Assembly: GCA_037127255.1 (NCBI GenBank)
Contig: JBANSL010000004.1
Location: forward strand, 7,378,001-7,442,000
Direction: 5' to 3'
DNA length: 64,000 nucleotides
From: Persicaria tinctoria
Taxonomy: Eukaryota > Streptophyta > Magnoliopsida > Caryophyllales > Polygonaceae
In this document: positions 8,854 through 62,961 of the stretch, piece by piece
Layout: each line of letters opens with the position of its first letter
Position numbering within the stretch: the first letter of the stretch is position 1
The notes under the pieces: generated by a model
The model's database searches: none
What the model was told of the DNA's origin: nothing
What the model saw: only the letters and a program-made list of their open reading frames with translations
Translations under genes and position numbers: made by a program

Positions 8854-10177
8854 TAGGGCTGTTATCTGAGCCGAACAGCTCGAGCTCGGCTCGGGCTCGG
8901 CTCGTTCGAAATGGGTAAACAAGCCGAGCCTGAACAATGTTTATAGCTCGTGTCGAGCCCGAGCCGAGCCCAAAAGCTCGAGTGTTTTAATTTTCCAAAA
9001 ATACCCCTAGGGTTATTATAATGAGTTGTCGCCTCCCTCCTTCAGTCTTTCACATGTGTGCCGCCTCCCTCTTCCAGCGTTTGCCTTATCTTTCACTTAT
9101 TCTCCAAATCTCCAGTTCAGGCCTCCTGTTTTCACCAAATCATCGGTAAGGAAATCTCTAGGTCAGTGTTTCTTCCCTCTTCCCCCTTCACCCTTCTTCC
9201 GGCGGCGACAAGTTGCTGGTATCAGGTAAGTTTCGCACACCTTCCAGCGACGATTTCCTAGCGGCGGCAAGCGTAGGAGAAGATGGATCTGAAGAAAGTG
9301 AAGAAGAGTAGGCCCTCAAATTCGAGATCCGGAGGCGGCGGCGGCAAGCGTCGGAGACGGATCTGAGGAAGGTGAAGAAGAGCAGGCCCTCGAGTTCGAG
9401 ATCCGGCGATGGCGGCGGCAAGCGGAGACGAATCTGAAGAAGGTGATCGAAGACGTTGAGTATCACGCCCTCCGGTACGTTCGAGATCCTCTAGGGTTCC
9501 TTCTTGGCTTCGAGTCCCCAACCAAGTTCTTCATCTTATTCCCTCGATCTATCCTGTCTTCAAATACAGAACGTCTATCATGTCTGGGTTTCTTCCTGGC
9601 TTCAAATACAGAACGTCTTCAAATACAGAACTTGGTTGATGCTTTGATCCAAGTTCTTCCTGGCTTCGGATAGATTGATGCTTTGATTCTGCTTAGATTT
9701 TGTATAAATTAAGATTTGGGATTACTTAGTTGTTGAGTCCTATTTCTGTTTTGTGGTATTTGAAGGTTTTTTGCTTCGATTTTGTATAAAATTAAGAGAG
9801 TTGGGATTACTGCTTCTATAATTTTGCATTTGCTTATCCATTGTTGAAGGGTTATGGATTTGTATTTGGTGAATGGGTGTTCTGCTTGTTTTAGGACTGC
9901 TACTGTAATTTTGCATTTAGGGTTTTAGCTACCAACCGAGCTCGAACGAGCCTGAACGAGCCCAACTGACGAGCTCGAACGAGCTCAAGCTTGTTCGTTT
10001 GGCTTGTTCGAGCCTTTACAAGCCGAGCTCGAGTTTACCCTTGGGCTCGCGAGCCGAGCTTGAGCGTCAAAACAAGCTCGAAAAATTTTTGGGCTCGAGC
10101 TCGGCTCGGCTCGTTTCCCGTTCGAGCCAAGCTTGAACATGTCAAGCTCGGCTCGTTCGGCTCGAATATCACCCCTA
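8854..10177. mobile_element. Non-autonomous hAT element with GAGCCGAGC-rich ends
   Basis: The left end TAGGGCTGTTATCTGAGCC and the inverted right end TAGGGGTGATATTCGAGCC are terminal inverted repeats. The flanks carry an exact 8-bp duplication TGCACAAT (8846-8853, 10178-10185). The subterminal 150-250 bp on each side is packed with GAGCTCG/GGCTCGG words on opposite strands. The core (about 9010-9900) looks like a promoter or 5' UTR with a triplicated GC-rich segment. I see no transposase domain. Confidence 0.85.
9261..9450 (+). repeat. Tandem triplet of about 75 bp inside the hAT element
   Basis: Three units start at 9261, 9338 and 9412, each opening GCGGCGGCAAGCG and continuing through a GGATCTGA-type core. 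The third unit is truncated. The units differ by small indels and substitutions. Confidence 0.8.
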
Positions 10178-18720: not shown

Positions 18721-19025
18721 ATGCACACTTTTTTCTTCAATAAATAACAAACTACCCTATTTGTTAGGTTTAAAACAACATATATAAATGCACGCTTAAC
18801 CGCTTTTTTGTGCTAGTTTTGCTCAAAAGATCACCCTAATTGCTTATTAGATCAATTGTGAGTAGAAGCTTAAGTATTTATTAACTTTTAATGACACTCA
18901 AACAATCTAATTAAAATTTCAAATAATAAATCCAAGTTTATTGATTTATATGGTTTGAGATAGTTTTTATAGTTAAGTTCGCTATGAATTTAGATAACAA
19001 TTAAGTGTAATATTTTTTTATATAA
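18721..19025. other. AT-rich intergenic DNA
   Basis: Nothing recognisable. Confidence 0.3.
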
Positions 19026-19030
19026 GAAGT

Positions 19031-19196
19031 TGTTATGAAATCATGGTGGATGGTTCACCTCCCAACCATTGGCCTCCTTTAACCTCCCACCTCCGCCTAT
19101 ATATAAGGCTTGTAAGCTCACTTGGAAATACACACAAGTAATAGAGATCTCTCTTTCTCTGCCTTCTCCTACTCCTTTTTCATTCGATTTATAACA
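19031..19196 (+). repeat. 5' LTR of the copia element
   Basis: The 166-bp LTR contains CTATATATAAGG as a likely TATA box. It differs from the 3' LTR by two substitutions. Confidence 0.92.
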
Positions 19197-19322
19197 CGTT
19201 ATCAGCACGATCGACTCGATTAATAGATTATTTTGTGTGAAAATATCTCTATCTTTTTCGATTTCCCTTTCCAACCTGTCGTTGGATTGATCTCCGAGGA
19301 TTTGGCCGATGGAGTTGGCAAA

Positions 19323-20036
19323 TCAAAAAGACGACTTGAGGCTTATCGTCGACGCCTCCTCGGATCTGCGACCCCATGGACATTGAAGCCTCCCTGCGCA
19401 TCGGTTTCCTCCTCCGCAGGTCTTCGATGCTGAATCTGACGATTGGTAGGATGAGATTTGATGAACCCGATGGATCGACGGAGAACCAGCCCGAGGCAAC
19501 CTAGCCGATGGCGGAGACGCCTCTGTCGATGCGAGCAGTGGCCAGCGCCTCCTCGCAGCCATCGACTCGCGATCGTCATCGCAAGCCCTCATCCTGAAGC
19601 CATCGATTCCATCGTTCTTCTCCTCGGCGGGATGGTTTTTCCATTCGATCAAATTCATTCTGCTTCTATATGCATATATGTCAATTGTTTTTCCTTTGTT
19701 TTGTTTTGCGTACGGATTTCTAATTAGTCCTGTGTGTAGATTATAAGCCGTTGATTGACAACCGCCGCTAAGAAATCCGATCTCTCGACCCTTCCGCTTC
19801 CGAGGCCGAGTGCCTAGGGCCACATTCGGAGCACTGAAGTCTACAATCAGGATCCGCATCCCCAGGCCGCAGCCGATGTTCGATGTCTCCATCGAACCAA
19901 GAACCAAGGCCCAGTCGAGGCGGGCGATGGGGGTGGAAAGCGGTGAGTCGCCGGTGGTGACGGGCGAGCTTTGTTGTAGGCCGGTGGCGGCGAGTTCCTC
20001 CACCATTCTGCAAACCCAGCGAGGAAGATGAATCAA
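19323..20036. other. GC-rich copia leader with opposing open frames
   Basis: This segment is more GC-rich than the rest of the element and has a 237-codon frame on the minus strand plus shorter plus-strand frames. None resembles gag or a host domain. A plus-strand ATG at 19309 opens only about 25 codons. I treat the long minus frame as a composition effect or a captured fragment of unknown origin. Confidence 0.4.
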
Positions 20037-20179
20037 TTTGGTAAAGATTTGTTTTTATTACAAAATTAGCTCCTAAATTCCTGAAAATTACGGATTGGGT
20101 TGTGTTTTTCTGATAACCACAGACAAGACCTAAAACTTCCAGGGTTATAAATTTTGTCCCTAGTGAAGGTACCGATCTC

Positions 20180-20963
20180 CATCCCCGAAGCGATGAGATT
20201 GAACTTGTAAACCAAATATAAAATAAATTTATCCAGTAGATAAATCAATATCCCCCGAAGTGGATAAAAGTGAGGAAATTGAAATTATAAATCACTCGAT
20301 ATGATTAATAAATCTCATCCCCGCAGAGATGATCGAGCCGATAAATTTCATCCCCGTAGAGATGAAATTATATTTATTATTTATGTTTAGTTAATTCATA
20401 TGCATGTTAATTTTATTTTATTTAAACTATACGGAGTATTTGTTTTCTCTCATCCCCGAAGTAGATGAACGAAACCATCACATCTCCCGTAGTAGATGAG
20501 CGGACACATCTCTCAAAAGAGATTATTGTTCTCATCTTCTGAAGTAGGTGAATGAACAAGTCGTATCTTTAAGATAGACCGATTAATTTCATCCCTTAAG
20601 CGATGAACCAAATATTTTCATCCCTATAGTGATGCATCAATGATTATCCTTTTATTTTATTTTATTTACTTGTATTTGTATGTTATATTTTTATTCTTCA
20701 TCTCCCGAAGTAGATGAATAGACATATCTTCCGAAGTAGATGAATGATAAACCGCACCCTCGTAGGGACGAACCGGTAAACGTCATCCTTGTAGTGATGA
20801 TTCGTGTATATCCAGATAAACAAATCAACTATGATCCTTAATGTTTCTCAATCAGTTTCCCGCAGTAAACGATAAAATTGCATATAAGAATACCGCCTCT
20901 TGACGTAGGTGATAAAAGGTCTCGAAGATCTATGTTAAACTTTCTTGTCACTCGAAGTTGGCA
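20180..20963 (+). repeat. Series of mini-hairpins with a conserved 8-nt loop
   Basis: At least 16 short inverted repeats follow one another, most with stems of 4-9 bp and an 8-nt loop close to CCCGAAGT. Examples (stem, loop): 20249-20266 TATCC, CCCGAAGT; 20315-20332 TCATC, CCCGCAGA; 20344-20369 AATTTCATC, CCCGTAGA; 20481-20498 CATCT, CCCGTAGT; 20532-20551 TCATCT with one G-T pair, TCTGAAGT; 20588-20607 TTCATC, CCTTAAGC; 20697-20718 TTCATCT, CCCGAAGT; 20783-20800 TCATC, CTTGTAGT; 20855-20870 GTTT, CCCGCAGT; 20946-20963 TGTCA, CTCGAAGT. Both stem arms change together while the loop stays similar. Units are mostly 25-40 nt apart, with a few longer gaps. Confidence 0.85.
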
Positions 20964-21239
20964 TGAATTTTATTTACTTATTTAAGATTATTGTTGTTCA
21001 TATTCATGTTTCTTAATAGTAGTATGCTTTACTATTTAGTATTTATCTTTTACATAGTTTTATTATTATTATTCCCTTAATGCACCATATTGTGAGTTTT
21101 CATCAAAGCATGCATAAGAGCTAGAAGACTCTAATTTCATATTCTTATAAACTCTAGAAGAGTATAAGATCTTATTTCAAACATTTGTACTCTTGAAGAA
21201 GTACATGGAATATGGGTTATGGCATATTCAGAACTATTT

Positions 21240-23030
21240 TTATTTGGTTAGTACAACCAATATAAATAACCACAAAGCATAATCTGGTTTACAAGGTCAC
21301 TTCCTGACAATCCTCTAAGCATTGCTTGAAGCATGCCCCTCTTGTAGAGGGTGTAAAAGAGGTAATGGTTAAGCGCGCAACCAATGTTATTGTCATGGCT
21401 TATAACTAGGTCATCATTGTACGGTTAATTCTAATGTCCCGATGAACATTATGAATAAGGATAAAGTGTATCTAATGAATACATGTAGTTGGTCATTAGT
21501 TCCATACATGTAGTATGACACCAACAGAAGTTCTGAAAATACCCAGTTAACGGCATCTGATTAAATAAATGGATCATCATATACAAAGTTCAATGGTTAG
21601 AATGTTTTACCATTGAAACTTGTGATATCACTAACTAGAAGTTAGTTGATGATAAAATCTTATTCTTTGTGGCATTTGGTCGCTCAAGAAAAACAATGAT
21701 TTGCAAGATCATTGAAATTCACATGAATACCCACCAAAAGGACTAGAAGATCCTAGGACCGGAAGATCCTCAATAAGGGTGACCATACATATGTACGGCT
21801 TGTTCTCTTGGCAAAATAATAACAAGACCGTCTATAATAAAGAGTAAATGCAAAGTCTCTTATGTCTCTTGATCAAGTTCAATGAGACAACTACGAACAT
21901 AAAACATCGGCATATGGACAATGTTATTCCAATATAGATGCCTTAACACATTGGTCATATGAAAAGGCAGAGAATGTTTGAGGAGCATATAGTAGCTCAC
22001 AACGACCGAGAAGAGTCGTTAGTCAAATGGGCCCATGCAGTTTTGCATTTCGAATTTGACACAATAACTTCTCTCGAATTATCTCCAGAAGAGAGTGTAT
22101 GTTCCGAGGCCTCCTCCAAAATTAACTAAAAGACCACAAAGAAGTTGAATGATACATGGGGTTTGAGTCCCTAATGATATCAAATACCTCGAGCTTTAGA
22201 AAGGTGATCAAATGCTCGGTATTTAGGGGGAGGGGAAATGAGACTGTACTAAGAAAGAGATTGCATGAAAGCAACTTTTCTATATATCATTTGGGATCCG
22301 CGGATGAATGAAAGTGAACCAGAAGTTCAACACTTATGTACACCAAATGATAGTTACATGGTTTAGCATAAAGCCATCAAATGCATCTACTAAGGCCAAG
22401 AGAGTGACTAAGTCACATATATTACATTAGCTAGCTCATTTGGAGGTTCCAGAAGTAACTCCGAAACAAACAAAAATCAAGTGATTCTCAAATATACGAG
22501 AAGTGTTGAAGATCACTAGGCTCTCACTTTAGGATTCCCCGAAAGTGGAAAGAGCTCATGGGAATATGATGATCATCAATCAAATAATGGATGTCGACAT
22601 CGAAATGAAGGTAAAAGAGATAGAAAGAAGAAATTCATGCAAAGATGAATTCTTTAAGCATGATGCTATTGGACCCGTAGTTCCAACATCGAAAAGTATA
22701 ACATCATTGGTTTTAAGTGGGTGTTTATACAAAACCGCAATAAGCGAAATGAAGCTATAAGATATATAGCAAGATAGAAGTCTAGAATGGATTATCTGAA
22801 AATATATTCACCTGTAGTGGGTATAATCTTTGGGTGTCGATGAACCGACTCTAACACGTAATTGACAGGCATAGTAGTTATATACCCATATTGATCATGA
22901 ATAAAAGAACATAAGTGAAAATGATCGATTATTTTGAAATGCCCGAAGCATCAATATGAAAGCCTCGTCATATGTACACGACTAAACCAAAGGGTGCTTA
23001 TAGTACTTGAAGTATTGTGTAAGTGGTGAC
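21240..23030 (+). pseudogene. Copia pol remnants (integrase and reverse transcriptase)
   Basis: The GAG-pre-integrase region is visible near 21670-21790 as a broken frame with RKTMICKIIE and KILGPEDPQ. Reverse transcriptase appears near 22690-22830 with GFKWVFIQNRNKRNEAIRY and then a YSPVV motif after a stop, matching the copia pattern ending ETYSPVVD. Stops, frameshifts and deletions occur throughout and there is no YVDD box. The frame at 22545-22760 is out of register with the true RT frame. Confidence 0.7.
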
Positions 23031-23068
23031 ATAGTGTATTGAGTCCTGAAGTACTATACACAACGTTG

Positions 23069-23600
23069 TACTCTTTTCCTTAATCTTGGTTTTTTATCCC
23101 ACTGGGTTTTTCCAAGATAAGGTTTTTAATGAGGCAACTTATACACCATCTATACATCAGATCCCCCGCATCAAAAGTTGAAAAACACACTAGGTCCTGA
23201 AGTACCTTATATTTGTGTATTGAAAGCAGCTCGGACGAGGAAGTCTATTGCATCGAAATCAAGTGTGATACATGAAGGCTTATATAAAGGCTTTTTAACT
23301 TGCACGCATCGAAGACAAGGTTCAGACTTGACCATGCAGCTCATGAAGTCCGTATTATCAAGAAATTCGAAGATCTTATCAGAATGAGAAAGCTGCAAGA
23401 AGAATGTTGATTTCAGGGGGAGAATATACACACTGCACTCTTTTTCCTACGATCAGGTTTTGTCCCACTAGGTTTTCCTGACAAGGTTTTTAACGAGGCA
23501 GTATCACCAAAGCGTATCAAATGACATATGTACTCTTTTTCCCTTAGTCCTAGTTTTTGTCCCATTGGGCTTTCTAGGCGAGGTTTTTAACGAGACAGAC
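23069..23600 (+). repeat. Three copies of a structured 3' repeat
   Basis: Units at about 23069-23137, 23438-23501 and 23530-23597 share TACTCTTTTTCC or CACTCTTTTTCC, a central TCCCACTGGG-type core and AAGGTTTTTAACGAGGCA or close variants. Flanking stems differ but still pair: ATCTTGG/CCAAGAT, TCAGG/CCTGA and CCTAG/CTAGG. The core can form CCC-loop-GGG in units 1 and 3. Confidence 0.85.
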
Positions 23601-23632
23601 TGTAATATTAGAGGTGTACATCCAAGGGGGAG

Positions 23633-23798
23633 TGTTATGAAATCATGGTGGATTGTTCACCTCCCAACCATTGGCCTCCTTTAACCTCCCACCTCCGCCT
23701 ATATATAAGGCCTGTAAGCTCACTTGGAAATACACACAAGTAATAGAGATCTCTCTTTCTCTGCCTTCTCCTACTCCTTTTTCATTCGATTTATAACA
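23633..23798 (+). repeat. 3' LTR of the copia element
   Basis: This 166-bp copy of the 5' LTR is preceded by the polypurine tract and followed by the GAAGT duplication. Confidence 0.92.
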
Positions 23799-23803
23799 GA
23801 AGT

Positions 23804-24384
23804 GATGTTTTTTTTAAAATGAAAATTGTTTTGGAGAGGTTTTACAATTAATTTGAATTTGAAGGCAACTTAAGGGCTTTTTTTTAATTAACTTGAATTT
23901 GATGGTAATTATTCGAATTTAAATGTAGCAGGAGACTATTTTCTGCAACCAAGTAAATACTTGAGGCTATTTTTTGCATTTTTGATAGTTCAGGCTAATG
24001 AGCCCAACATACTCGACAGTTGGGCTATTTTTAGCAATTTTCCCGAAAATATTTGCTTGCTTTTGCCCCTATTTTATGGCTTTCAAATATAAAGTTTCAG
24101 TTCTCCTGATTACTTAAATTTTAATGCATGATCTATTATATTCGATATCACCACGACCCTTTTGAAAGGCGGTTTACCCTAATTAATAAAGTGAAATTGA
24201 CGGTTCAAGGAAAAGATTCTCAAATTACATACTTCGTATATTTCTAATAGAAGGTAATATAGTTACTTAAAAATATATTCTTTTTTTCATCTTTTGTTAA
24301 AAAAATGAGTAAAACCTTCACTCCAAAAAAATATATAGATTACAATTTACATGCATTATCAAACATTAAGAGAGTTTTATTTGA
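23804..24384. other. AT-rich intergenic DNA
   Basis: No gene or complete repeat end is visible. Confidence 0.35.
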
Positions 24385-24392
24385 GCTGTATG

Positions 24393-25575
24393 CAGGGCCG
24401 ACCAATGGGTTTCGGAGGTCCTGTGCAAAACCTTGAATGAGATAGTATTCGACAATAATTTTAGATGAAATTTACATAACACAATATGTAAGAAAATAGT
24501 TCTTATTCAAAATAACAACAAAATTCTTGTCAAATAATTCTTAATCAAAATAACAGCAAAACAATACTTAACTTATCATATAGTTCAAACTTCACCACCA
24601 TTAGTTTCAATGTCATACCATGAGTATCCACATCAACAACAGGATTTTCAATGCAGGTTACTGGTTTATGAATAGATCAAGTTTGAAATCAATTTCTTAC
24701 TCGTCAAACACTCCAAATATAGAATAATAACAACTATATATAAAAGGCCACAAAAAAAATTAAGGTGCAAATTCCATAATCTGCGTAGGAAATTTATCAA
24801 TGCTAAAAGAGGGGGTAAAAGTCAAACAACTCAACAATCCCTAAACCAGTAACCTAAATAAACCCAATTGAACAAACCCTAAACCACCTTTATCAATTCT
24901 AAAAGAGGGGAAACAATTGAACATGCAATACGTACAGGAACACAAAAAGGCTGAAACAGCAAGCGACGGGTGACCCGCTGCAATGGCCGACGACCTGCTG
25001 CAATGGCCGGAAGAAGAAGCCGGACCCCAACCTCCCATAGTCGCCGACCTGCTGCAATGACTTGAGTACCTTAAACCTCCAACAACCGGAAGAACAAGCC
25101 CGACCCCAACCAGCAGCAGCCGAAAGAAGATTAATTTGTAGAGAAAAAGCGTGAACAACCATTAATTGGGTTTAGATTTTGAGAAATTTTGAAGAAAGGT
25201 AGGAGATTGAAGAGGGGAAGAACCGTGAACAACCATTAATTGGGTTTAGATTTTGATAAATTTTGAAGAAAGGTAGGAGATTGAAGAGGTGAAGAAGCGT
25301 CAACAACCATTAATTGGTTTTAGATTTTGAGAAATTTTGAAGAAAAACAGAAGATTGAAGAGGTATTCTTGAGAATTTGAGAAGTTAAATGGATCGAGAA
25401 GATGAAGAGGCAAGGGAGGCGTGCCCTTTCTCAGTTTCTCTTCCCCGCTTTCAATTCACCAGGAAGCGTGCACATTACAAGACAATTTTTTATTTAAACA
25501 GAAGTATACCTTAGGCCTGAGAAATGTGAGGCGTTGTACAAGTGCACACTTTGCACTTGCCCAGGGTCGAGCCTG
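24393..25575. mobile_element. hAT non-autonomous element
   Basis: The left end CAGGGCCGACCAATGGG and the inverted right end CAGGCTCGACCCTGGGC are terminal inverted repeats. The 8-bp flanks GCTGTATG and GTTGTATG match at 7 of 8 positions. The interior includes a repeated CTGCTGCAATG word (24975-25060) and a 74-bp triplet. The minus-strand frames 24841-25158 and 24899-25162 have no recognisable domain. Confidence 0.8.
25150..25371 (+). repeat. 74-bp tandem triplet inside the hAT element
   Basis: Three units start at 25150, 25224 and 25298, each opening CGTGAACAACCATTAATTGG (CGTCAACAACC in the third). Spacing is exactly 74 bp with few substitutions. Confidence 0.9.
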
Positions 25576-34938: not shown

Positions 34939-35904
34939 TCAATACGACGGCCGCCCTCCGCCGTGAGACGTCCAACCGCCGTAAGCGTCGTGGCTAATCT
35001 GCCCTCCTCCATTCCCCAGCAAATTCTGTGGCATGCTGTACATCTGGATCCCCTGCGTCGGATCCGCCATCCCTCCGCTGCTCCCGTTTGCTAAATTGGG
35101 CGGTGGCGACGAGCCGCCAGGAGCTTGGCCTTGGCCACCGCCTGTGATGGCGGCGGCGTCGTCTTCGTTGTCCTCGAGTGGAAGCCTATCATAAGTGGCG
35201 TTGGCGAACGTGGCAGCGATCACCATGACGGGCCCGGCGGCCACGAGCGGGCCCACGACGGAGCCGCCGACGATCTGGCCCTGGCCGCCGGCCAGGTAGA
35301 TGGTCAATCCGGCGGAGCCAGGCGGGGCGGGTCCCGGGAGGAAGGCGCCGGTGAGGGAGAGGATCTCGAACCTGCCCGGGAGGGCCATGATGGCGGAGGA
35401 GGGCTGCGCGGTGGAGGGCTGGCGGAGCGTGACGTTGGTGACGGCGCCGCTGGCGCTGAGGACGCAGACGCCGCGCTGGCGTCGCCGCGCGAACTGCGCG
35501 ACGCAGTCGGCGACGTCAGCGCCGCCCGCCACCTCCATCACGTGGCTCCGGAGCGCGTTAGGACTATCCCGGGTGACGAATATCGGCGGCTTGGGCTTGT
35601 TCTTGGACCCCGGCGGGCGGCCACGAGGGCGGCGGTGGCCGGAGGAGGTGTTGGCCACCTCGATAGCTCCCTCCTTGGGGTCGTCGCTGTGGTCATCCCT
35701 GTCGTCATCACCGCCTCCTCCAAGGGCGGCCTCGACGTTCATGGATATCCCCAGATCTGGCTTCTTCAAGGAGGAGGACCCCGGCGAGGATTCGATGCCG
35801 GATTGGTGGTGGTTGTGGAGGTGGTGCTGCTGGTGGTGGTGGTGCTGGTGCTGGTGCTGGTGCAGACCTACCTGCTGCTGACTAGTCCACCATGGATTCG
35901 CCAT
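34939..35904 (-). CDS. AT-hook motif nuclear-localized protein, clade A (AHL)
   Basis: This intronless gene encodes 321 residues. AHL proteins bind AT-rich DNA in the nucleus and act as complexes repressing growth genes in light, hormone and flowering pathways. After a MANPWW start comes a His/Gln-rich stretch (about 15-34) and an acidic segment (66-78). A type-I AT-hook follows ([15 protein letters not shown], 91-105), then a PPC/DUF296 domain (about 108-246) with the clade-A GRFEIL motif (177-182), and a glycine-rich tail. A longer frame to 35919 would start at TTG, so I place the start at the ATG at 35904, which also gives the family's usual N-terminus. It resembles the AHL19/20/22-24 group; I cannot choose the ortholog. 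No broken residue is visible. Confidence 0.95.
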
Positions 35905-36300
35905 ATATGGTTTCTTCAATTCAAATTGGGGGAGGGTTTCCTAAATTTAATTAGGGTCAAACCTAGTACAAGTATGAAATCTAGGGTTTTGCTTCCCAAA
36001 GATAGTAAGGATTGAAGATATAGAAATAGATCAAAGGCTTGAATTTTAGGGTCGGGATCCGATGAAGCTGTAAAAACAACTCTATTTGCAGAACTCCATA
36101 CCGATTAGGAATTGAAATTGATAGATAGATCTCTCTTATCTTAGAGAGAGGTGTTTTGTTTAGGAGTTGGGATTGAAGTGGGGGAGGAGGAGAGAGAGGA
36201 ATTGCTAAGTATGGGGGGAATTTCCTTTGTGTGTGGGGGGTTTCTCTCTCTCTCTCTAAATTGTCTGCTGTCTAGTCAAGTTTCTCTCTCTCTAAATTAT
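35905..36300 (-). promoter_or_regulatory. AHL 5' UTR and proximal promoter with GA/CT repeats
   Basis: Upstream on the minus strand lie GA-rich tracts (36183-36200) and two CT/GA microsatellite runs (about 36242-36258 and 36281-36295). GA repeats are common in plant 5' UTRs and core promoters. The exact start site is not visible. Confidence 0.4.
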
Positions 36301-61155: not shown

Positions 61156-61212
61156 TTGGTATCAGAGCTTTACTCACTGTTTTTTATCTAACAATCTTGT
61201 GAGTTTGCGATC

Positions 61213-62961
61213 ATGTCTGGTGAAGCAAGCGGAGGATTTGCACAGGGAAGGTCCACAAGCAGACCGCCACTCTTTGTAGGAAACAACTTTGTCCACTGGA
61301 GATCTTTGATGAAGATGTTCATCATAGACCAAGATCTAGAGCTTTGGAACATTATAGAGAATGGTCCGAAGATTCCAGAGAAGGAAGGACCAAACGATAC
61401 CAAAGTGGCAAAGAAGGAGTCTGAATACACCCAAGCAGATCTTGAAATCATCTCCAAAAACTACAGGGCTATTAACTTACTTTATTGTGGTCTTAGCACT
61501 GATGAGTTTAACCGTATTTCCTCTTGTAGGTCAGCTAAAGAGATTTGGGACAAGTTGGTCGTCACCTATGAAGGAACGAGCCAAGTGAAAGACACCAAAA
61601 TCAGCATCTTCCTTCGAAAGTATGAGCTCTTCAAGATGAAATCCGATGAGTCAATCAAAGCCATGTTCACACGATTCACAGAAATCACCAACAACCTTGA
61701 CTCTCTCGGCAAGAGCTTTACCAACGTTGAGAAAGTGAGGAAGATACTGAGGTGCCTTTCACAGGAGAAATGGGGTCCAAAAGTAACAGCTATAGAAGAA
61801 GTTCAGGACCTCACCACTCTACCCCTTGATGACCTCCTTGGGAAGCTGATCACGCATGAGATGATTCTTAATGAAGACGATGGAGAACTTCCAGTTAGCA
61901 CCAAGAACTTGGCACTCAAGTCTAAGAAGGATGAGTCCAAGGATGGATCTGAATCCGAAGATGAAGATGACGATGAGGATGATCCTTTTGCCCTTATCAC
62001 AAGAGGCCTTGCTCGAATTCTCAAAATGAAGAAGCAATTCAACAACAAGGATGGATCAGAGTCTTCAAAATTTCGAGGTAAGCCTCAATACAACAAATAT
62101 GAAAAGAAGACTAAACCGTTGTCTTGTTTTGAATGTGGTGAAACAGATCATCTTGTGAAGGACTGCCCTCAAAAGACTAAGAGCCAGCCCAAGAAAGGTG
62201 ATAAATGGAAGAAGAAAGCTATGGTGGCTACTTGGAGTGATTCCGACTCTGACTCCGACGATGAGAAGGCCAACATCTGTCTTATGGCCTCAGAAAATGA
62301 ATCCCACGATGAAAAGCTTGAAGCTACTGTAAGAGAACTAATGGAAAGTCCAAAAGAGGAGATCACCAAGGTGAAAGAACACAAATGGATTATTGATAGT
62401 GGTTGCTCGAGGCATATGAGTGGGAAGAGTTCTCTCTTTCATGGTCTAAAGAAGCAATCCACGGGAACAATCACTCTTGGTGACAAAGGGAAATGCGACA
62501 TTGTTGGTATTGGTAGTGTTGGAAGTGATTCCAGCCATAGTATTAAAAATGTCTATCTTGTTAATGGTTTAAAGTATAATTTGCTTAGCGTTTCTCAATT
62601 ATGTGATAGTGGTAACAATGTCAGATTTAACAAGAAAAGATGTATAGTGTGCAGAGATGATACAGGTGAAGTTATTCTGACTGCATACCGTTACAACAAC
62701 ATATACGCTGTAAATGCTGATCAAGTGGCACAAGGAAGCTTAACCTGTTTAAAGGCCTTGACGGACGATCCAAAGCTTTGGCACAGGAGACTCGGTCATG
62801 TGAGTCCACATACACTACAGAAGCTTGTGTCCAAAGGACTTGTAAGAGGGCTACCTGAGATGGACTTCAAAGGTATTGACATGTGCAATGCTTGCACACG
62901 AGGTAAACAAACACGTAGCTCCTTCAAACCCAAAAAGGTTTGTTGCAGATATAGATCTTAA
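61213..62961 (+). CDS. Sirevirus-type copia gag, protease and pre-integrase
   Basis: The 582-codon frame encodes a copia gag with the [18 protein letters not shown] and [20 protein letters not shown] segments typical of Sireviruses. It has a CCHC knuckle [14 protein letters not shown] (305-318), an aspartic protease with [13 protein letters not shown] (D395-S-G intact), and a GAG-pre-integrase region (LWHRRLGH, then C-x2-C at CNAC) up to KQTRSSFKP. The frame ends shortly after that because of a deletion: the integrase DDE core is missing and the following pol is in another frame. Acidic Asp/Glu-rich stretches flank the knuckle. Confidence 0.9.

Follow-up and report, generated by a model that had tools for sequence, protein, structure and literature searches.

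The window, by which we mean the whole 64,000-nucleotide stretch of DNA analysed here, carries an LTR retrotransposon at 19031-23798, and the hairpin interval 20180-20963 lies inside it. The element is a Ty1/copia LTR retrotransposon with the features by which such elements are recognised: two LTRs, a PBS, a polypurine tract (PPT) and a 5-bp TSD. Its 5' LTR (19031..19196, plus strand; 166 bp, TG...CA) is immediately preceded by the target-site copy GAAGT. The 3' LTR (23633..23798, plus strand), which is preceded by the PPT AAGGGGGAG (23624..23632, plus strand), is followed by the same GAAGT. As the two LTRs differ at only 2 of 166 positions, the window copy moved fairly recently.

Right after the 5' LTR, the sequence TTATCAGCACGA forms a putative PBS (19199..19210, plus strand), apparently of the half-tRNA-Ile type. 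We take it to fit the 5' half of tRNA-Ile (anticodon arm) with the wobble base read as inosine, which would make the primer a half-tRNA. A PBS of this kind makes the Bianca lineage the candidate affiliation; a half-tRNA-Ile PBS with an edited anticodon is given as typical of that lineage in PMC6317226. The order of LTR, PBS and PPT is shared with Bianca, as is the 5-bp TSD, which most plant LTR elements have. Unlike Bianca, the present family appears to be without coding capacity, and no hairpin array figures in the accessible part of PMC6317226, whose main text has 0 occurrences of the word 'hairpin'.

The host element and its coding state

The pol of the element is degenerate. We take 22664-22777 to be a remnant of copia reverse transcriptase (RT), a stretch that Pfam did not recognise. 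Searching five frames of the element against Pfam gave no significant match, the one at E 0.046 being to an unrelated family, and the 75-aa frame of the pol remnant had no protein match at E 0.001. Internal sense-strand frames longer than 165 codons were absent from the 3' parts of 18 copies, 18 loci and three further loci; the longer open frames encountered belong to other elements or to flanks. Because no long sense-strand frame occurs in the examined copies, the family is most likely non-autonomous (LARD-like), its coding capacity having been lost. As expected of LARD-like elements, copies without a long sense-strand frame are nevertheless mobile: the LTRs of the window copy differ at 2/166 positions.

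The 5' stretch of the internal region (19197..20170, plus strand) is free of hairpins; the loop pattern YYNGWAGW used below occurs there 0 times on the plus strand and once, without arms, on the minus strand. This stretch is much shorter in loci L194 and L187. Antisense frames were surveyed in the window and three loci, and a 243-codon open frame is found on the minus strand at 19323-20054, within the hairpin-free part.

Hairpins with a common loop

Each element holds about 25 sense-strand stem-loops with a common loop and with arms that are variable yet complementary. Fifteen hairpins with an 8-nt loop, counted as units, make up the array at 20180..20963 (plus strand). The units are clustered, with AT-rich spacers between them and loops near CCCGAAGT. 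They were taken from 22 places where arms of at least 4 flank a loop of 8; the other seven, whose loops are unrelated or which lie across a unit, were put down to chance. The first-pass annotation had counted at least 16 hairpins. All seven stem pairs that it named are in place, each with 8-nt spacing. A further unit, the sixteenth, is one T short near 20450 in the window copy and reads TCATCT-CCCGAAGT-AGATGA in 12/40 alignment rows (counted by eye). The loop length of eight, which it had called fixed, is nearly right: a variant unit at 20508..20523 (plus strand) can also be read as a 6-bp stem with a tetraloop, ATCTCT-CAAA-AGAGAT, in which loop positions 1-8 and 2-7 are paired. In 23/40 rows this tetraloop is CGAA.

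Other units of the array, all on the plus strand, illustrate how the arms vary. TATCC-CCCGAAGT-GGATA (20249..20266) also occurs among the copies as CATCC/GGATG (5) and AATCT/AGATT (2), and AATTTCATC-CCCGTAGA-GATGAAATT (20344..20369) has a stem of 9 bp. CATCT-CCCGTAGT-AGATG (20481..20498) is followed by TCATCT-TCTGAAGT-AGGTGA (20532..20551), whose U.G pair is present in 40/40 rows, and by TTCATCT-CCCGAAGT-AGATGAA (20697..20718). CGCCT-CTTGACGT-AGGTG (20894..20911) has a G.U pair in 29 rows and A-U in 9. In TGTCA-CTCGAAGT-TGGCA (20946..20963), the middle pair is U-A in 22 rows, U.G in 17 and C-G in 1.

The array had initially been confined to 20180-20963, a limit that has to be moved: about ten further loop-selected hairpins reach through the pol-derived region to 23207. 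Past 20963 come AGAG-CTAGAAGA-CTCT (21117..21132), TGTACT-CTTGAAGA-AGTACA (21186..21205) and TAATGT-CCCGATGA-ACATTA (21432..21451), the last with the loop CCCGAAGA in 9/18 copies. Two hairpins, AGGA-CTAGAAGA-TCCT and AGGA-CCGGAAGA-TCCT, share 21739..21770, and AACGAC-CGAGAAGA-GTCGTT (22001..22020) and GGTT-CCAGAAGT-AACT (22445..22460) follow. TTGGA-CCCGTAGT-TCCAA (22669..22686) has become TTGGG/CCCAA in 3/17 copies; this hairpin may in part be a coding palindrome of a pol remnant (GPVVP, presumably pol-derived). The last clear unit is AGGT-CCTGAAGT-ACCT (23192..23207); all of these are on the plus strand.

Upstream of the purine tract there are also three related repeats of ~70 nt (23067-23136, 23433-23502 and 23529-23598). 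They have a TCCCAYTRGG-like core and outer arms that differ (CTTGG/CCAAG, TCAGG/CCTGA, CCTAG/CTAGG); compared with shuffles, two of the repeats fold better than the majority and the third does not. They may represent a second class of hairpins whose stems are compensatory.

In the interval 20180-20963, hairpins with a loop of 8 and arms of at least 5 number 12, against a mean of 3.65 in 300 dinucleotide shuffles (sd 1.80, largest 10). Beyond the array, loop length alone gives no excess (34 against 29.9 expected, arms of at least 4), and an excess of hairpins appears only with the loop motif as selector. We relied on selection by the loop alone (YYNGWAGW), which avoids choosing sites for their pairing. 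On the plus strand, arms of at least 4 flank 8 of 11 such sites in the array and 6 of 16 elsewhere in the internal region, giving 14/27 for the element. The corresponding figures are 0/5 for its minus strand, 1/123 for both strands of the remaining window and 15/1064 for 77 unrelated loci.

Permutation of the arms gave a concordant result. Among the 27 sites, 86 of 135 arm positions form Watson-Crick pairs, compared with 41.4/135 when the 3' arms are re-dealt (sd 6.0, largest 65, n=5000). All 5000 permutations fall below the value for the array alone (41/55, mean 21.7) and below that for the remaining sites alone (45/80, mean 24.6); in the five further strand/region sets that had sites enough for the test, p ranges from 0.05 to 0.84. 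Fifteen dissimilar units, which differ from one another in five or more of the 10 arm letters, still pair at 45/75 positions versus 21.4, a value reached by 0/20000 permutations. Furthermore, a register scan of 57 GWAG cores had its peak where three bases on the 5' side of the core and one on its 3' side belong to the loop, which corresponds to the 8-nt loop; 17 of the 57 cores pair in this register versus 2.1 expected from 504 control cores. A chance origin of the hairpins is ruled out by the shuffles, the loop-only selection and the arm permutation.

Variation among copies and subfamilies

Searching the plant's own genome (1.68 Gb) with the array located it in at least 44 places, with 40 of 828 candidates scored. 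The LTR gave 414 candidates and the pol-derived stretch 1249, 40 being scored in each case; from these candidate numbers the copy number must be large. In another 39 arrays, which are 82-98% identical, the hairpins are for the most part kept, and certain copies have lost individual units. Stems show a mean diversity across copies of 0.053, compared with 0.114 for spacers and 0.121 for loops. Within the loops, the G and A are conserved (about 0.07), while the C (0.18) and T (0.14) are variable. The loop logo is C-Y-Y-G-H-A-G-T (518 loops from 14 units, excluding unit 20508 and rows with gaps). Loop positions 2/7 could pair in 486/518 loops and positions 1/8 in 11/518, one of them G.T. With 2/7 pairable and 1/8 mismatched, a tetraloop such as CGAA may cap the stem.

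For the pol-derived region, 20 copies were fetched and 13 hairpins were traced in 15-18 of the 18 usable ones; the change from TTGGA/TCCAA to TTGGG/CCCAA noted above was found in three of them. L154 and L163 were dropped, as other elements follow the array there. These are other retroelements directly after the array, probably nested insertions, and L163 carries frames that we take to be integrase- and RT-like. The two loci serve as a small negative control: each has one paired unit, from the array end, and their remaining motifs are unpaired (2 and 5 on the plus strand, 4 and 2 on the minus strand).

When 11 hairpins were aligned over 40 rows, pairing held in 98.3% of cells, compared with 29-58% with slid partners. 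Changes on both sides of a pair are few in this set (2/59 pairs, with as many in 45/500 shuffles), and the covariation score was equalled in 4/500 shuffles. Unaided, RNAalifold recovered 6 of the 11 named hairpins, and 2 of its 100 pairs had changed on both sides. Folding the whole array with RNA parameters, against 20 shuffles per strand, gave z of -2.62 (plus) and -4.05 (minus), the minus strand folding better than the plus; four hairpins folded singly were weak (-3.3 to -5.8 kcal/mol). Consensus fold and whole-array fold thus support the array only in part, and thermodynamic support for it is modest. On the minus strand of 20180-20963, the loop complement is often cUNCGg-like (ACUUCGGG, ACUACGGG), presumably belonging to a tetraloop class.

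More distant relatives were obtained by fetching 20 loci from weaker LTR matches. Eighteen of them bear 5-19 hairpins on the sense strand; the other two, L186 and L188, have no hairpins and only LTR-like sequence in common. With flanking DNA counted in, 216/534 motifs on the plus strand of all 20 loci have arms, versus 0/75 on the minus strand. In three more loci, the plus-strand counts are 14/32, 1/7 and 9/25, and the minus-strand counts 0/2, 1/6 and 0/6. Inspection of six loci revealed new stems that still pair, among them TCATTT/AAATGA (repeated) in L178, TTTCAATC/GGTTGAAA in L183 and GCGATCT/AGATCG in L180. Tandem units at 26-nt spacing are present in L178 and L180.

We then pooled the window and the 18 loci under a slightly wider loop pattern, which gave 419 distinct 26-mers. 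At the right register 64.6% of their cells pair, against 37.4-51.1% at slides 1 to 4. All four Watson-Crick types occur at the first stem pair (T-A 102, C-G 74, A-T 66, G-C 14); slides 0 and +2 both give 30 pair types, so that this measure does not single out the right register. The 325 distinct arm pairs from all loci match at 766/1625 positions versus 458.8 (sd 18.4), and minus-strand arm pairs at 106/345 versus 95.7 (sd 8.0). Under very strict thinning (46 arm pairs, flanks and singletons kept), the effect shrinks to 80/230 versus 60.2, which 53/20000 reach.

Two-sided covariation is therefore weak among close copies and strong among units and subfamilies, where it exceeds the relatedness background as controlled by slides and thinning rather than by a tree. 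The first-pass annotation had read the exchange of stems under a constant loop as selection on RNA structure and not drift of a tandem repeat. Stems that vary while pairing and loop are kept are indeed seen on the sense strand between units and subfamilies, and its expectation of similar hairpins in related elements was borne out; within close copies the predicted covariation is weak. The case against drift is incomplete, since reverse transcriptase could also keep the arms complementary through palindrome correction.

Candidate roles of the hairpins

A conserved loop on variable arms, confined to one strand, suggests recognition of the loop in a folded strand by some partner, for such a partner would require the loop and let the stems be exchanged. 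Since the sites are kept in the absence of any long frame, their function must act in cis. We propose that the hairpins may be multivalent docking sites for the Gag of a hypothetical autonomous partner, which would admit the coding-dead RNA into the partner's particles. Individual hairpins, being weak, would sum to avidity, and the number of sites would vary, partly via tandem duplication of units of ~26-33 nt. Multi-site Gag packaging via loop-sharing hairpins is the best explanation that we can offer, and we hold it tentatively. It is favoured by analogy, because BARE2 is packaged without a Gag of its own and because zinc knuckles hold loop guanosines.

Barley BARE2, which is unable to make Gag, is packaged into VLPs and has retained its cis RNA signals (PMC3735527, accessible part). 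A series of ~25 hairpins with one common loop is not described for it there, the word 'hairpin' occurring 0 times, and in this respect the present family differs. In HIV-1, the NC knuckles bind the loop guanosines of GGAG and GGUG tetraloops, and replacement of the GGAG loop had little effect on packaging, according to the accessible part of PMC7599994. Hairpins SL2 and SL3 of HIV-1 psi resemble ours in their short stem, small loop and exposed guanosines (GGAG and GGUG, versus GHAG here); psi differs in having few hairpins in a compact leader with binding demonstrated (PMC7599994, same part), whereas here there are dozens over 3 kb and binding is a prediction. Loop-specific packaging is thus not guaranteed, given that the HIV-1 loop replacement was nearly neutral. 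In small RNA viruses, dispersed packaging signals consist of many stem-loops that have a loop motif in common while their stems vary; the present hairpins belong to a retrotransposon instead, no capsid protein is known to bind them, and their loop motif is not known to be related.

That a coding-dead element evolved some 25 putative Gag-docking hairpins and keeps multiplying them, out-competing its helper for packaging and extending the series into its former pol, is in our judgement rather doubtful. Little is understood about the selection of plant LTR retrotransposon RNAs for packaging and about the way in which coding-dead elements succeed in it. The loop described here, short and repeated on interchangeable stems across a large family, provides a concrete motif that one binding experiment can test, and the hairpin family would be a natural case of multi-site RNA recognition.

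Among the alternatives to Gag docking, the most probable is recognition of the loop by an RNA-binding protein of the host, serving nuclear export, stability or silencing escape, with Gag uninvolved. Host proteins such as Smaug/Vts1 (CNGG loops) read a short loop on any stem, and the GNAG core is short enough for a single domain. The anatomy of the hairpins (loop-only selection, arm permutation, divergent loci, pooled register) would be the same under this explanation. The rest of the window, however, is without such hairpins (1/123 motifs, within the window), and we consider a host protein unlikely.

The next alternative in rank, also unlikely, is mutational: a hairpin-prone unit would have been amplified in tandem and its arms perfected by RT template switching (palindrome correction), so that complementarity is a by-product and the loop is whatever the ancestral unit contained. 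The tandem units of L178 and L180, with their 26-nt spacing, fit this account. Sequences of the type C-GNA-G make very stable DNA mini-hairpins, and the cUNCGg-like loop of the minus strand agrees with it as well. Among distinct arm pairs, G.U has no clear excess over A.C (22 versus 19). Single changes among copies lean to G.U (53 versus 30 A.C in the array, 18 versus 15 in the pol-derived region). As G.U is not clearly commoner over distinct arm pairs, the hairpins may act as RNA or as DNA. On the other side, the loop G and A are conserved while the loop pyrimidines vary, stem columns are constrained relative to spacers (0.053 versus 0.114), and the sites are spread across 3 kb with dissimilar stems (the 15 units above). 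Correction would also remove the U.G pair that persists in 40/40 rows at 20532.

It is very unlikely that the hairpins act as single-stranded DNA while the element is reverse-transcribed or integrated, for instance as sites of pausing or strand transfer. The loop type would suit stable DNA mini-hairpins, as mentioned above, and the minus strand folds well (z -4.05, RNA parameters), yet the weak strand hint in the single changes (53 versus 30) favours sense RNA.

Translation control and a small-RNA source, both raised by the first-pass annotation, are the least probable of these readings. The leader-like position of the array would suit either; no long sense-strand frame exists in any examined copy, hairpins are present in the former coding part too, and the Rfam matches are sub-threshold only. 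MicroRNA precursor stems are far longer than the 4-9 bp found here. Dimerisation, a further suggestion of that annotation, is unlikely to proceed through kissing loops because CYYGHAGT (518 loops) is not self-complementary; the motif has 27 occurrences on the plus strand of the element and 5 on the minus. A protein on duplex DNA is rejected because its binding would keep the arms conserved, not the spacer, and a known RNA family, the hammerhead included, because all four Rfam matches (E up to 10) are far below gathering.

Retrozymes are non-autonomous plant retrotransposons with hammerhead ribozymes. The present family resembles them as a plant non-autonomous retroelement with conserved RNA structure and differs in that Rfam finds no hammerhead in 18800-24200. 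In the open-access literature, with subscription papers outside the scope, the titles and abstract openings among the matches listed mention no such array in a plant retrotransposon.

Viral contigs contained 0 matches to the LTR/PBS 19-mer. The 3' motif was found in 7 viral and 70 prokaryotic loci, none of them element-like (blastn, E 0.001), and the hairpin pattern in 19 viral loci, where 5/466 motifs were paired, which is the background rate. A copia gag-pol protein from the window had no match in viral contigs either. Elsewhere in the window, a 589-codon open frame at 61192-62961 presumably belongs to another copia-like element, and two unrelated tandem arrays with a 74-bp period lie at 9261-9446 and 25143-25364. 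Finally, a 333-codon open frame at 34939-35940 encodes what we take to resemble an AT-hook nuclear-localised (AHL) protein.
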